Below, one piece after another: positions 2,386 through 32,748 of a stretch of DNA of 39,696 nt (positions are counted from its first letter, which is position 1; each line of letters opens with the position of its first letter). The DNA is from a virus, in the IMG/VR virus record IMGVR_UViG_3300037169_000020, positions 1-39,696 of that record; one strand, 5' to 3'. The notes under the pieces are model-generated. The model was not told the origin of the DNA. It did not search any database and saw only the letters and a list, made by a program, of their open reading frames with translations. A program made the translations under genes and the position numbers.

Positions 2386-3275
2386 GTAACCAACAATTAT
2401 CAGCAGTAGAGCACGCAACAGACGTAGTAATGTGGGATGACCAACAGAAATTAGATGAAATCCGCAAGCTATTCGCGCCCAAACTTACAGACATGGAGTT
2501 TAAGTTTTTCGTAGGACTCGGCAAAGCTTCCAGGCTTAACCCGTTTACACGTGAAATCTGGTGTGTCAAGTATCAGGATAACGCACCTGCTCAAGTGTTC
2601 ATCGGCCGAGATGGCTATAGAAAAGCGGCACAAGCACATAGCGAGTACGATTATCATCAATGTGATGCTGTGTATGAGAATGATTCCTTTCAGGTACATA
2701 ATGGCGAGGTCAAACATTCCTATAAGTTAGTCAATCGGGGTGCCTTGGTTGGCGCGTATTGTATTGCCAAACGTCACAAATCTTCAAGACCAATATACGT
2801 CTTTGCGGAATTGAAAGAATACTCCACAGGCAAGAGCTTATGGAATAGCCAGACTGGTAAACCCGCAACAATGATTAAAAAGGTTGCTGAGTCACAATGT
2901 TTGCGCGCATGTTTCCAGGATTTGCTAGGTGGAACCTACGGCGAAGAAGAAATGGAGAGTATTAAATCGCAAGAAAATAATCTTCATGTAATCCGTGGCA
3001 ATACCCAGACTGAGAAGCTTAAAAATATATTAAACGAGGCCGTAGTAGATGCTGAAACAGGCGAGGTAATTGACCAAGAGCCAGTACATAATACGGGTCG
3101 AGATGACATTAATGCAAGTCAGGAACAGATAGACGAGATTGTCGCAATGATGGCTAATAAGGGGTTCAGTCAAGAACGAATCAAGAAAGCCTTGGGTTAT
3201 TACAAAGTCGATCAGCTAACCGACCTAACAGACGCCCAGGCGAGATTATTTATCTTACAGTTGGAGAAAGCATAG
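2382..3275 (+). CDS. bet: Bet/RecT-family single-strand annealing protein
   Basis: 297 aa. The N-terminal 190 residues fit the Red-beta family: LNPFTREIW at 52-60, FIGRDGYRKAA at 73-83, and MIKKVAESQCLR at 164-175 are hallmark stretches. The C-terminal 100 residues are charged and end in a small helical domain (ARLFILQLEKA), the part that in Red-beta contacts the exonuclease and SSB. It anneals complementary single strands during recombination and phage replication. It forms an operon with the YqaJ exonuclease and SSB, with overlapping starts and stops on both sides. Confidence 0.9.
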   Translation: MSNQQLSAVEHATDVVMWDDQQKLDEIRKLFAPKLTDMEFKFFVGLGKASRLNPFTREIWCVKYQDNAPAQVFIGRDGYRKAAQAHSEYDYHQCDAVYENDSFQVHNGEVKHSYKLVNRGALVGAYCIAKRHKSSRPIYVFAELKEYSTGKSLWNSQTGKPATMIKKVAESQCLRACFQDLLGGTYGEEEMESIKSQENNLHVIRGNTQTEKLKNILNEAVVDAETGEVIDQEPVHNTGRDDINASQEQIDEIVAMMANKGFSQERIKKALGYYKVDQLTDLTDAQARLFILQLEKA

Positions 3276-3688
3276 TGATTAATGAAGCAATTTTAGTCGG
3301 CAATGTCGGACGAAAGGAAGTGAAAGTGCTGAAAAATGGAGGTGACTTAACCGTCATTTCTCTGGCTACAAGCACTAAATACAAGGACTCTAGCGGCCAA
3401 AAGCAAGAACGTACCACATGGCACAATATTAATTGCTTTAGTAAACTTGCTGAAATCTCGGCTAAGTATGTCCATGTAGGTGATGTATTATATGTGCGCG
3501 GAGAGATTAATAATCGTAAAGTCGAGGAAGGCGACCGCGCAGGTCAATATATGTACTCAGTGACCGCAAATGATTTAAAATTCCTGCCAGGCGGTAAGAA
3601 AAAAGCCGAAGAGTCAAAACAGAGTCAAGAAAAAGCTCAAAAAGATGCTAAAGAGTTTGAGTTTGATGATAGCGAAGTGCCTTTTTAA
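3275..3688 (+). CDS. ssb: single-stranded DNA-binding protein
   Basis: 137 aa with an OB fold over about residues 1-105: AILVGNVGRKEVK, then ISLATST, TTWHNI, and the L-Y-V-R-G-E-I strand, all typical of bacterial SSB. A low-complexity KKKAEESKQSQEKAQ linker follows. The acidic tip FDDSEVPF matches the C-terminal tail that binds partner proteins. The start is GTG 3275, overlapping the annealing gene stop. It coats single-stranded DNA in replication and recombination. It is the last gene of the rightward operon, followed by the hairpin region. Confidence 0.95.
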   Translation: MINEAILVGNVGRKEVKVLKNGGDLTVISLATSTKYKDSSGQKQERTTWHNINCFSKLAEISAKYVHVGDVLYVRGEINNRKVEEGDRAGQYMYSVTANDLKFLPGGKKKAEESKQSQEKAQKDAKEFEFDDSEVPF

Positions 3689-11173: not shown

Positions 11174-11181
11174 ATACACCG

Positions 11182-11232
11182 CAAAACCTAGCCTTCGCGA
11201 GGCGAAAAGCGATTCATCATCGCCCGGTTTTG
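11182..11232 (+). other. three-way-junction leader RNA candidate
   Basis: CAAAACC (11182-11188) pairs with GGTTTTG (11226-11232). Inside are two hairpins: GCCT/AGGC (11191-11203) and GCGAT/ATCGC (11209-11223). This 51-base cloverleaf-like fold begins a few bases after the predicted transcript start and ends about 30 bases before the Endo VII-type start codon. Confidence 0.45.
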
Positions 11233-11263
11233 TAATTACAATGATGACACCGGATGAGTGATT

Positions 11264-11827
11264 ATGTCAGAGATAGTTAAAACTTGTAAAATTCATGGCA
11301 ATCTTACAGAAAATGAAGTTTATAGAAGAAAGCCACCACGCAATGAAATTGTATGTAAAAAATGCAACAATGAAAAATCTTCTAAATATCGGTATAAAAC
11401 CGTCTCAAGTGACATTATAGAGCGAAGATGTTCACGTTGCTGTATCATAAAACCTAAATCCGACTTCAAGCCATATCAATGGGAATTAACTTCTCCTTAT
11501 TGTAATCTATGCAGAGTCGAAAATAGCACTAAGGAATATCATAAAAATCGCTCTCATTTAAAAAGAAGATTTGGTTTAAATATCAATGGATATGAACTTC
11601 TTATTGCAAAACAAAATCACGCATGTGCTATATGTAAAAAACCTGAATCGGCACTAGGAACCAAAACGGATGGCTCTCCAAAAAGACTTTCTGTTGACCA
11701 TTGTCATGAAACAAAAATAATCCGTGGATTATTATGCCAACGATGCAATTCTGGCATTGGAATGTTTTTTGATAACCCAGATTATTTAAAATCAGCAATT
11801 GACTACTTAATTAATCCTCTGAATTAA
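11264..11827 (+). CDS. recombination endonuclease VII-type homing endonuclease
   Basis: 187 aa. The C-terminal half fits the T4 endonuclease VII (HNH/His-Me finger) family: C121xxC124, DHCHET at 145-150, and C158QRC161NSGIG, giving a zinc site plus the catalytic DH pair. The N-terminal half holds further CxxC pairs (31/34, 56/59, 80/83) that suggest extra zinc knuckles for DNA recognition. Plus-strand orientation within a long leftward gene block and its own promoter mark it as an inserted free-standing mobile gene. I prefer ATG 11264 (GGATGAG upstream) to GTG 11258. Confidence 0.85.
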   Translation: MSEIVKTCKIHGNLTENEVYRRKPPRNEIVCKKCNNEKSSKYRYKTVSSDIIERRCSRCCIIKPKSDFKPYQWELTSPYCNLCRVENSTKEYHKNRSHLKRRFGLNINGYELLIAKQNHACAICKKPESALGTKTDGSPKRLSVDHCHETKIIRGLLCQRCNSGIGMFFDNPDYLKSAIDYLINPLN

Positions 11828-22964: not shown

Positions 22965-23143
22965 TTTTTCATCTTCTTTAACGTTTTAGCCAAAGCAACT
23001 TCCTTCCTAATGGTTGGAGACTTAGACTTTGCAGCCTTAGCCAACTTCTTCTCAGGAATCTTTTTACCTTCGGGTACGCCAAGCTCTCGGTGGAGCTTAC
23101 CTGGGTGTTTACTTACCGCTTTTTGAATCCATTTTTCCGCCAT
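22961..23143 (-). CDS. conserved small phage protein, MAEKWIQKA type
   Basis: 60 aa. Starts MAEKWIQKAVSKHPGKLHRE and ends with a Lys-rich helix (IRKEVALAKTLKKMKK). I recall many phages with a short protein of this start and basic end, found near head genes, but without known function. It is overlapped at its start by the end of the inserted HNH gene. A GGAG site lies before the ATG. Confidence 0.7.
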   Translation of the reverse strand: MAEKWIQKAVSKHPGKLHRELGVPEGKKIPEKKLAKAAKSKSPTIRKEVALAKTLKKMKK

Positions 23144-23648
23144 TACTAACTCCCTTTAGAATAAATTCCTGAATTTTAGGATGTCGCTTGGCGTGACAAT
23201 GACAACATAAAATCACTATATTATCATCATTACAACCTAGCTCAGGAAAATCAGAATAAGACTGTATATGATGACCCTGTAAATTGTCATTACCATTACA
23301 ATCAGAACATCTTCCATGTAGCTCTACTAATTGCTTTATTTTCTTTCTAACTTTATATGGTCTTTCACTAACACCACCCTTCCAATTAATGTGAGAATCT
23401 TTGAATGGCATTCTTTTTCTTCGGCACTCATTAGAACAATATAAAGCCGTTTCTTTTCTATACTTTTTCACTTCAAACTCATTACCACAAACCAAGCAAT
23501 TTTTTTTTATTCTTAAAAATAATCTAGGTTTAGCAGAACTAGAGCATGTCTTAGAGCAAAATCTACTTGGCCTATCAATTCGCCCAGAAAAAGACTTATG
23601 ACAAACTTCGCAGTTTTTTTCTATCTTTCCAGTGCCGTGCCTTCCCAT
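23109..23648 (-). CDS. HNH homing endonuclease with multiple zinc knuckles
   Basis: 179 aa. Three N-terminal cysteine pairs or knuckles (C13/C16 with C31/C35, C51/C54 with C71/C75) resemble NUMOD-like zinc motifs. The HNH core is C114xxC117, H126-H127 and CCHCH at 148-152 followed by AKRHP. The final 14 residues (GVSNGGKMDSKSGK) run into the start of the next gene in another frame. GGAGG precedes the ATG. A free-standing mobile endonuclease inserted into the cluster of small basic genes; it cuts homologous DNA lacking it. Confidence 0.85.
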   Translation of the reverse strand: MGRHGTGKIEKNCEVCHKSFSGRIDRPSRFCSKTCSSSAKPRLFLRIKKNCLVCGNEFEVKKYRKETALYCSNECRRKRMPFKDSHINWKGGVSERPYKVRKKIKQLVELHGRCSDCNGNDNLQGHHIQSYSDFPELGCNDDNIVILCCHCHAKRHPKIQEFILKGVSNGGKMDSKSGK

Positions 23649-29781: not shown

Positions 29782-30168
29782 TCACTTCTTGATGATGTTT
29801 AAGCTATTCGCTTGAGAAGATTGATAGCACTGCAAGGCGGAATTACACACCACAGGGCCACCAACAATATTGCCTGATAGTTGACTACCAACCACTAGCA
29901 AATCGAGCTTACACGCTTGCCCTGCGCCTAAATTGAATGGATTAGCACACGCGCCATTAGCAACCGTTTGGGTTATGCCTTGAATTGGGTTCATGCTTAG
30001 GGATTTAGTGGATTTGGCTTGATTGGTTACGAGGTATTGAATAACGAGCTGTTCACCTGCTGATATAGTCGCAGTCGTTGGAGTTAATGGGGTAAATGTC
30101 CACATCGGTTGACTTGCGTTAGCTGTTAATGATGCTGCAAGAAGTGTGCCAAGTACTAATTTATTCAT
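29782..30168 (-). CDS. secreted moron protein of a Legionella-like family
   Basis: 128 aa with a clear Sec signal peptide: MNKLVLGTLLAASLTANA, cleavage after Ala18. The mature part starts SQPMWTFTPLTPTTATI and continues with YLVTNQAKSTKSLSMNPI, CANPFNLGAGQACKLDLLV, GSQLSGNIVGGPVVC and QCYQSS..NSLNI, with four Cys (74, 86, 108, 114). I recall this pattern from large families of secreted proteins in Legionella and relatives. It is host-type cargo (a moron) rather than phage machinery, perhaps altering the host envelope or its surroundings. It has an AAGGATGG site. A tRNA 3' fragment lies directly upstream. Confidence 0.75.
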   Translation of the reverse strand: MNKLVLGTLLAASLTANASQPMWTFTPLTPTTATISAGEQLVIQYLVTNQAKSTKSLSMNPIQGITQTVANGACANPFNLGAGQACKLDLLVVGSQLSGNIVGGPVVCNSALQCYQSSQANSLNIIKK

Positions 30169-30192
30169 TATTCCATCCTTATTTACGTTAAT

Positions 30193-30240
30193 TGGCAGGG
30201 CTAACAGGACTCGAACCTGAGTTACAAAGTAATTAGCCCC
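30193..30240 (-). other. tRNA 3'-end fragment forming a mini-tRNA fold
   Basis: On the minus strand GGGGCTA (30240-30234) can pair with TAGCCCT (7 bp, one G-U), followed by discriminator G and CCA. A TTCGAGT T-loop with a CAGG/CCTG stem is present. Between acceptor and T arm is only a tiny TTAC-TTT-GTAA hairpin; D and anticodon arms are absent. The 5' half coincides with the last codons of the HNH gene. It is a tRNA remnant or a tRNA-like element, not a decoding tRNA. Confidence 0.6.
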
Positions 30241-30635
30241 GCATGTAACTTTCTATGACAATTAGAACAGATAACAACACATTTTCTAATTTCTGCCTTC
30301 AATCTTTTATGAGAAAAACATACCATTCTACTAACAGGCATATCTTTTAGTTTTGGTTCTATATGATGATAGTCCAATGCTACAGGTTCTCTTTCACCAC
30401 ATTTACGACAACCAACTAGCCTCTTATGCCTAAAAATCATTTGATAGCTTTTTTCAGTTTCTTTCTTATCTCTAGCCCGAAGCTTTGCTCGCCTTACAGG
30501 ACTATTACGGTAATTATCGTTGTTGAACTTTTGAGCACATGGCCTACAATAAGTCTGCAATCCATCTTTCTTTAATTTATTTCGATTAAACTCTGAATAA
30601 TCCTTTTCAGTGTCGCAATTATTACATTGTTTCAT
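30222..30635 (-). CDS. HNH homing endonuclease next to a tRNA remnant
   Basis: 137 aa. N-terminal C4xxC7 and C30xxC33 zinc knuckle, then C76xxC79, catalytic H90-H91 in LDYHHIEP, and C123xxC126H with H131 at the end (CSNCHRKLHAG). This is the common phage HNH type with a zinc ribbon. The last five codons and the stop form part of the tRNA-like fold at 30193-30240. The start ATG 30635 has a GAGAAA site. Likely a mobile gene that inserted at or beside a tRNA gene. Confidence 0.85.
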   Translation of the reverse strand: MKQCNNCDTEKDYSEFNRNKLKKDGLQTYCRPCAQKFNNDNYRNSPVRRAKLRARDKKETEKSYQMIFRHKRLVGCRKCGEREPVALDYHHIEPKLKDMPVSRMVCFSHKRLKAEIRKCVVICSNCHRKLHAGLITL

Positions 30636-30646
30636 CTATTTCTCAT

Positions 30647-31027
30647 TTAATGTTCGGTCTGAGCCTCACAATGCTTGCACTGCTCACCCGTTACCCTGTC
30701 AAAGTCATCAGCAATCTTTCTCACCTCATCAATGGCAATCATAGCCGCTTGATGGCCTGTAAAATGTTCCTCGCCTTTCTCTTTTGATTCGTCCATAGCT
30801 TCCCAAATCTTGCCTCCTACATTATGGATTACCTGAACCACTAAGCGGGCTATCAAATTATCAACGGGGCAATCATCCTCGAACTTACTAAGCCAGTCAT
30901 TAATTGATTTTAGGGGTGATTTAGACGCAACGATAAGCAATAACTTCTCAAATATCCTTCGCCCTTCGTCATCCATATTGCCCATGATACGGGTCAATTC
31001 TTCTCCATTAATTTCTATTCGTTCCAA
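30647..31027 (-). CDS. hypothetical protein with C-terminal Cys pair
   Basis: 126 aa, helical and acidic, ending GEQCKHCEAQTEH, a CxxC that could bind metal. The start is TTG 31027, two bases after the previous stop with AAGGG upstream; the next ATG would remove 15 residues. No family recognised. It lies among small genes between TerS and TerL. Confidence 0.55.
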   Translation of the reverse strand: MERIEINGEELTRIMGNMDDEGRRIFEKLLLIVASKSPLKSINDWLSKFEDDCPVDNLIARLVVQVIHNVGGKIWEAMDESKEKGEEHFTGHQAAMIAIDEVRKIADDFDRVTGEQCKHCEAQTEH

Positions 31028-31455: not shown

Positions 31456-31530
31456 TGGTAGCGGGAATTGGAATCGAACCAATGACCGATGGCTTATGAG
31501 ACCATCATTCTACCTCTGAAATATCCCGCT
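31456..31530 (-). tRNA. tRNA with CAT anticodon (Met, or Ile2 if modified)
   Basis: 75 bases with CCA encoded. Acceptor AGCGGGA/TCCCGCT is perfect. The anticodon arm ATGGT-CTCATAA-GCCAT gives anticodon CAT. T arm has GGTTCGATTCC. No C1-A72 mismatch, so not an initiator. Whether it serves Met or lysidine-modified Ile (ATA) cannot be told from the sequence. Confidence 0.9.
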
Positions 31531-31536
31531 ATGCTC

Positions 31537-31611
31537 TGGCTCTCCGTGATGGACTTGAACCACCGACCAATAGATTAACAGTCTACTGCTCTACCACTGA
31601 GCTAACGGAGA
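31537..31611 (-). tRNA. tRNA-Asn(GTT)
   Basis: 75 bases with CCA encoded. Acceptor TCTCCGT/ACGGAGA with discriminator G, D arm TAGCTCAGTGGTAGAGC, anticodon loop CTGTTAA, T loop TTCAAGT. The 5' 29 bases overlap the end of the protein gene at 31583-31843. Confidence 0.95.
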
Positions 31612-32661: not shown

Positions 32662-32748
32662 TGGTGGAGCAAGTTGGAGTCGAACCAACACGGAACTAGC
32701 CGGCCACAGATTTACAGTCTGGCACCCTTCCTATAAGGTGTTTGCTCC
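32662..32748 (-). tRNA. tRNA-Tyr(GTA)
   Basis: 87 bases with CCA encoded and a long variable arm, as in class II bacterial tRNA-Tyr. Acceptor GGAGCAA/TTGCTCC is perfect, anticodon loop CTGTAAA, T loop TTCGACT. It stands alone between two small genes of the leftward operon. Confidence 0.95.

Follow-up and report, generated by a model that had tools for sequence, protein, structure and literature searches.

The orphan tRNA 3' end and the gene beside it

In the 39.7-kb IMG/VR virus record analysed here over its full length (the window), which by profile matches encodes a P22-like portal protein and TerL, an HNH endonuclease gene is followed by the 3' end of a tRNA that has no 5' part. How half a tRNA came to lie there is the question raised by this locus. 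The original prediction offered two origins: either the 5' part of a phage tRNA gave way to the HNH gene, or an ancestor integrated at a host tRNA 3' end and left imprecisely with host DNA.

The minus strand from 30240 to 30193 reads GGGGCTA-ATTACTTTGTAAC-TCAGG-TTCGAGT-CCTGT-TAGCCCT-G-CCA (Table 1). The stop codon TAA of the HNH gene ends at 30222 and the T stem begins at 30220, with one base between them. The acceptor 3' strand, the G discriminator and the CCA are read directly in the sequence at 30193-30203, as had been described; the T arm, described as intact, is present, but its stem forms four of five pairs, with T.T at position 49/65. The pattern of a T arm followed by seven nucleotides, a discriminator and CCA occurs four times in the window, in the three tRNAs found by ARAGORN and in the orphan end, against an expected count of 0.06 per strand in the shuffled window. 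The Rfam tRNA model scores 43 nt of the orphan end at 15.3 bits (E 3.3; cut-off 29), a sub-cut-off value that is expected because the sequence is a remnant. Searching phages by blastn with the 81-nt junction returned only weak matches to tRNA-Gln and other tRNAs, useful for the isotype only, and neither strand of the window contains a match to the missing tRNA-Gln 5' part, as a permuted or trans-split tRNA would require. The observed orphan tRNA 3' end is confirmed as real.

Table 1. Coordinates of features at the HNH/tRNA-Gln locus; positions refer to the window unless a relative is named
Feature	Position	Strand	Remarks
HNH endonuclease gene (137 aa, phrog_2255)	30222..30635	-	Inserted in tRNA gene; ends CSNCHRKLHAGLITL-stop
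5' junction	30636..30646	-	Filler ATGAG (30642-30646) and AAATAG (30636-30641); from alignment with L005, L045 and L100
Orphan tRNA-Gln(UUG) 3' end	30193..30220	-	T arm, acceptor 3' strand, discriminator and CCA; complete tRNA-Gln syntenic in L100
T arm of orphan end	30204-30220	-	T49.T65 mismatch
Acceptor 3' strand TAGCCCT of orphan end	30197-30203	-	
Discriminator G and CCA of orphan end	30196; 30193-30195	-	
GGGGCTA, last HNH codons	30234..30240	-	Pairs with acceptor 3' strand 7/7 including one G-U; probably chance
Upstream neighbour P30647, unknown protein	30647..31027	-	Directly before tRNA-Gln in L100, L045, L090 and L048
Downstream neighbour (moron), probably secreted, Legionella-type	29782..30168	-	
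tRNA-Met	31456-31530		ARAGORN
tRNA-Asn	31537-31611		ARAGORN
tRNA-Tyr	32662-32748		ARAGORN
Complete tRNA-Gln(UUG)	L100 4510-4583		TGGGCTATGGTGTAATGGTAACACAGCAGCCTTTGACGCTGTTATTATAGGTTCGAGTCCTTTTAGCCCTGCCA

The HNH gene, which ends ...CAT GCG GGG CTA ATT ACT TTG TAA, is a free-standing ORF with neither an intron nor an intein around it. Its product matches phrog_2255 over residues 1-134 in a profile search (E 9.9e-34, or about 1e-33). The score against Pfam HNH (PF01844) is 17.5 bits, short of the curated cut-off of 21.4, and the zinc-ribbon form is divergent; despite this, the PHROG match and the conserved motif residues are clear. The zinc-binding Cys pairs and the HH...N..H motif are conserved, and C4, C7, C30, C33, C76, C79, C119, C123, C126, H91, N125 and H127 are invariant among 13 aligned family members. 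Compared by sequence with solved structures, the family gives a marginal zinc-ribbon match to Hpy99I as its best (E 0.14) and no other match. Between the window copy and that of the relative L005, 24 of 27 changes are synonymous (dN/dS 0.023), which implies that the protein has been kept functional; by this measure, the gene is under purifying selection.

The start of the downstream moron resembles a signal peptide, and searches of Pfam, PHROG and NCBIfam gave no match for it. The only relative found in a set of 84,980 genomes belongs to a Legionella sp. MAG (37%), which hints at a Legionella-like host.

Intact and split alleles of the tRNA-Gln gene

Relatives were gathered with the window TerL and the moron as queries. 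L100, a close relative without an HNH gene at the locus, has in order the P30647 homologue, a complete tRNA-Gln(UUG), the moron (92%) and the T29528 homologue. A tRNA-Gln likewise lies 3' of the P30647 homologue in L090 and L048, and one precedes the T29528 homologue in L048 and L088. With an intact tRNA-Gln at the same place in these relatives, the window remnant can be assigned as the 3' end of a phage tRNA-Gln.

In L005 and L006, which were assembled separately and whose TerL is 58% identical to that of the window, the HNH gene (98% amino acid and 93.5% nucleotide identity to the window copy) lies in a tRNA array, flanked by both halves of tRNA-Gln. The layout is TGGGATATGG...GACTCTGG / AAAATAG-ATG...TAA-A / TCAGGTTCGAGTCCTGATAGCCCTGCCA, where TGGGATATGGTGAAATGGTTATCACACTAGACTTTGACTCTGG, the tRNA-Gln 5' part through the end of the anticodon arm, precedes the gene and ATCAGGTTCGAGTCCTGATAGCCCTGCCA, the 3' part from the T arm onward, follows it. 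The L005 insert thus consists of AAAATAG and the ORF, with 7 nt before the ATG and at most 1 nt after the stop. L005 also contains, at 1172-1640, a second HNH-like gene between tRNA halves (5' GGAGAAG..., 3' ...CTTCTCCACCA).

The window and L005 have AAATAG-ATG and the T-arm junction in common, and the window is without the 5' tRNA part. Its left junction runs from the P30647 stop codon through ATGAG and AAATAG to the ATG, and 30636-30646 stands in place of the spacer and the tRNA-Gln 5' part, of which about 45 bases are lost. The window tRNA-Gln is dead. When viral contigs were scanned for the exact HNH/T-arm junction, true copies occurred only in L005 and L006, four other matches being due to chance. 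The claim that the HNH gene took the place of a phage tRNA's 5' part, with a complete tRNA to be found here in relatives free of the gene, is strongly supported by the intact tRNA-Gln(UUG) of L100 and the split tRNA-Gln of L005 and L006. At the sequence level, the intact and split alleles demonstrate insertion into a tRNA gene.

At stem positions 49 and 65, L005 and L090 have T-A, L100 has A-T and the window has T.T; T65 is also present in the L045 remnant, where the right flank matches that of the window. The most economical reading, drawn from this one base pair only, is a chimeric T stem: the left side up to the T stem would have come with the HNH gene and the right side would be that of the recipient, the exchange having taken place within CAGGTTCGAGTCCTG. 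Because the HNH proteins of the window and L005 are 98% identical and their TerL proteins 58%, the gene must have been transferred horizontally between divergent phages.

A second endonuclease gene in the same tRNA

L045, with a TerL 100% identical to that of the window and a moron 89% identical, carries an unrelated HNH gene (phrog_23251; L045 209-704) in the same tRNA-Gln. There the original tRNA-Gln 5' part runs into a new T arm and acceptor (CTTCGTTCAACTCGAAGTAGCCCTTCC), which gives a complete tRNA with a swapped 3' half, a T discriminator and a CCA that is not fully encoded. The stop codon TAG of the L045 HNH gene runs into the displaced old tRNA end AGTCCTGTTAGCCCTGCCA, and the moron follows. 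Relatives of this endonuclease are found in tRNA arrays too. An accident is hard to credit when near-identical phages carry two unrelated endonuclease genes in a single tRNA.

Association of the HNH family with tRNA genes

HNH endonucleases of Felix O1-like phages, Pakpunavirus, Vequintavirinae and other phages belong to the same protein family as the window HNH (phrog_2255), and many of them sit in tRNA arrays. In a sample of 126 non-redundant HNH ORFs of the family, which are not phylogenetically independent, a complete same-strand tRNA lies within -60 to +130 nt of the stop in 38, as opposed to 41 of 662 other ORFs of at least 100 aa from the same loci (Fisher 8e-13); the ORF overlaps a complete downstream tRNA in 23 of the 126 and in 6 of the 662 controls (1.6e-14). 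The overlap is exactly 10 nt in ten family ORFs (L003, L039, L102, L109, L110, L115, L120, L132, L152 and L162), at tRNAs for Thr, Asn, Glu, Lys, Gln and others, so that tRNA bases 8-10 (TAG or TAA) serve as the HNH stop codon. The frame itself forces a stop at these bases; the unusual part is how frequently the ORFs run into tRNAs. The tRNA sequence begins 0-31 nt past the catalytic CxxCHxxxHx motif in 23 of 31 measurable cases, and in the window 18 nt separate this motif from the T arm.

Where a tRNA adjoins a member of phrog_2255, it is mostly complete, whereas the window keeps only the 3' end. Orphan 3' parts starting near the T arm occur in the window, twice in L005, and in L062 (same phage family as the window, TerL 83%), L104 (Klebsiella phage VLCpiM5a), L148 and L155. 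The list was compiled from ten calls, with L104 added by eye; L024, L113 and the second ORF of L117 were set aside, as they look like complete tRNAs missed by ARAGORN. Most distant members (80 of the 126 ORFs) are followed directly by neither a tRNA nor an orphan T arm, which means that the family does not target tRNAs throughout.

Joining the flanks of each ORF in an ARAGORN grid gave tRNAs for 36 of 126 HNH ORFs and 15 of 300 controls, a result made noisy by real tRNAs nearby; after reading of the sequences, only L005 (two ORFs), L155 and Pseudomonas phage PaoP5 were accepted as interrupted tRNAs, and L038 is unclear. PaoP5 is the cleanest named case: its HNH (52% identical) splits a tRNA-Lys that is intact between the same neighbours in K5 and PA10. 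Identity to these phages ends after CTTTTAA and restarts at GTGAGTTCGAG, which is the T arm, and about eleven tRNA bases (anticodon 3' stem and variable loop) are replaced. In L155, the HNH gene (2885-3325) follows CTCATA and divides a tRNA within its anticodon loop, much where group I introns of tRNA genes are found. Upstream copies of the 5' half of the downstream tRNA are few (L152 and L115, with a second tRNA-Lys upstream, L117 and L004), and their rarity speaks against a general rule of regeneration.

These free-standing HNH enzymes may form a widespread group specialised on tRNA genes as a class, a tentative reading with somewhat less than even odds. The group would recognise the conserved T arm or the 5' end common to many tRNAs, so that one enzyme could enter genes for different amino acids, and the ORF would take its stop TAG or TAA from tRNA bases 8-10. 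Some copies would then keep a complete adjoining tRNA, and others, as in the window, would kill it.

The window contains two further endonuclease genes, neither with a tRNA-like sequence nearby: an HNH gene (phrog_1271) between structural genes at 23109-23648 (minus strand), and an endonuclease VII-type gene at 11258-11827 (plus strand), oriented against its neighbours. Directly 5' of the latter, at 11181-11247 (plus strand), lies a match to the Rfam int-alpA RNA (RF02996; 40.3 bits, cut-off 35.8), and the pair is possibly another mobile cassette.

Origin of the remnant

The best explanation, with a probability of roughly 0.87, is that a free-standing homing-type HNH gene entered a phage tRNA-Gln(UUG) at the border of the variable loop and the T arm, and that the window copy arrived by recombination in which the 5' tRNA part was lost. 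L005 and L006 would represent the primary state, with the tRNA 5' part, the HNH gene and the tRNA 3' part in succession. The anatomy of the loci suggests homing: the enzyme would cut an intact tRNA gene close to its T arm, and repair templated by a relative with the HNH gene would copy the gene across; insertion would destroy the cut site and thereby protect the carrier genome. Empty sites are found in relatives, namely the complete tRNA-Gln of L100 and, for the PaoP5 copy, the complete tRNA-Lys of K5 and PA10. In the window, the right-hand exchange would have fallen inside the T arm, joining donor T49 to recipient T65, and on the left an untidy repair would have lost the tRNA 5' part and sealed the gene to its upstream neighbour by a 5-nt filler.

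It had also been proposed that the last HNH codons supply a matching 5' acceptor strand, and that the mini-tRNA re-formed in this way, 48 bases long, might be processed or act as a 3' end signal; the structure would then be cut by RNase P/Z, or would mark where the mRNA ends. All seven bases do pair, though only with one G-U wobble; this was equalled in 21 of 1000 ORF-end shuffles, and the fold z is -2.2. However, L005 has TGGGCTT at this place, which reduces the pairing to 5 bp, and the other orphan 3'-half cases have no such pairing. Folding of the window 48-mer predicts a best structure other than the T arm, cleavage by RNase P at that point would take off the HNH stop codon, and the codons concerned encode a HAGLI stretch typical of the family. 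The mini-tRNA is probably a chance formation that is not conserved, and a function for it, weakened by these findings, is highly unlikely.

An interrupted tRNA that is still spliced, in which the HNH gene would be an intron ORF (group I or other) whose 5' exon the window has lost, is similarly improbable. Both tRNA parts are kept in L005, PaoP5 and L155, and PaoP5 and L155 have their insertions in the anticodon loop, the place of group I introns in bacterial tRNA genes. But the L005 insert is almost only ORF, leaving no room for a self-splicing core, and its tRNA has an A5.G68 mismatch in the acceptor stem; Rfam finds no intron RNA family, group I included, in 30100-30700 of the window up to E 10, and the bases replaced in PaoP5 also stand against splicing.

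Less probable still, and contradicted by the relatives, is a fossil attachment site, with the tRNA end and the moron as host DNA carried off by an integrated ancestor. tRNA 3' ends are classic integration targets, and the moron has its relative in the Legionella MAG. Against this, several related phages have a complete phage tRNA-Gln at the same place, in L100 beside the same moron, and the same HNH gene splits the tRNA-Gln of another phage (L005). The fragment abuts the HNH gene and not an integrase, its neighbours being the HNH gene, the moron and small unknown ORFs. The host match that this origin had led one to expect is also missing: the exact 25-base 3' end of the fragment occurs in none of 84,980 bacterial and archaeal species genomes (GTDB set; exact matching). 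A chance tRNA-like sequence with no tRNA history, to which the Rfam score of only 15.3 bits might point, has a negligible probability given 0.06 patterns expected per shuffled strand, and is refuted by L100, where a complete tRNA-Gln with an almost identical 3' end occupies this place.

Relation to known systems and implications

The closest precedent is SegB of T4/T6, a free-standing GIY-YIG homing endonuclease of the tRNA region (tRNA-Arg/tRNA-Ile) implicated in cutting tRNA-containing DNA; the 3' end of segB shares microhomology with the tRNA-Tyr 5' end, and SegB relatives are often near tRNAs (PMC2988022, PMC13096335). The window gene is likewise a free-standing endonuclease gene in a phage tRNA region, but it is of the HNH class and lies within a tRNA gene, whereas SegB lies between tRNA genes; an orphan tRNA half, present in the window, is not mentioned in the excerpted SegB accounts (PMC2988022, PMC13096335). 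The Mob HNH endonucleases (MobA-E) of T-even phages are free-standing and inserted as single genes (PMC2988022). They resemble the window gene in these respects and in their HNH class; unlike it, they are listed with protein genes as their neighbourhoods (Table 1 of PMC2988022). Bacterial tRNA genes can also be interrupted by endonuclease-bearing group I introns, for example one with a tRNA-fMet anticodon-region enzyme (cited in PMC3984707). As with these introns, a tRNA gene is broken up by a mobile endonuclease gene, in some cases within the anticodon loop (PaoP5, L155), but the HNH insert is essentially an ORF without an intron core, and tRNA bases are lost or replaced. A literature search of incomplete coverage found no paper in which intron-free HNH genes break up the tRNA genes of phages or use tRNA bases as their stop codon, which is weak evidence of novelty.

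The scar in the window is real and well explained, and the family pattern is more interesting than the single copy; the insertion fits a wider tendency of such genes to settle in the tRNA genes of phages. Even close relatives among phages have strongly differing tRNA arrays, and the causes are under debate. At the loci described here, endonuclease genes can be seen to break, split and replace tRNA genes at defined points, both in uncultured phages and in cultured ones of Pseudomonas (PaoP5 versus K5 or PA10). Since intact alleles are available for comparison with the broken, split and replaced tRNA genes, the idea that homing causes the loss and turnover of tRNAs becomes testable. The locus also carries a warning: an orphan tRNA end in a phage genome is not necessarily an attachment site.
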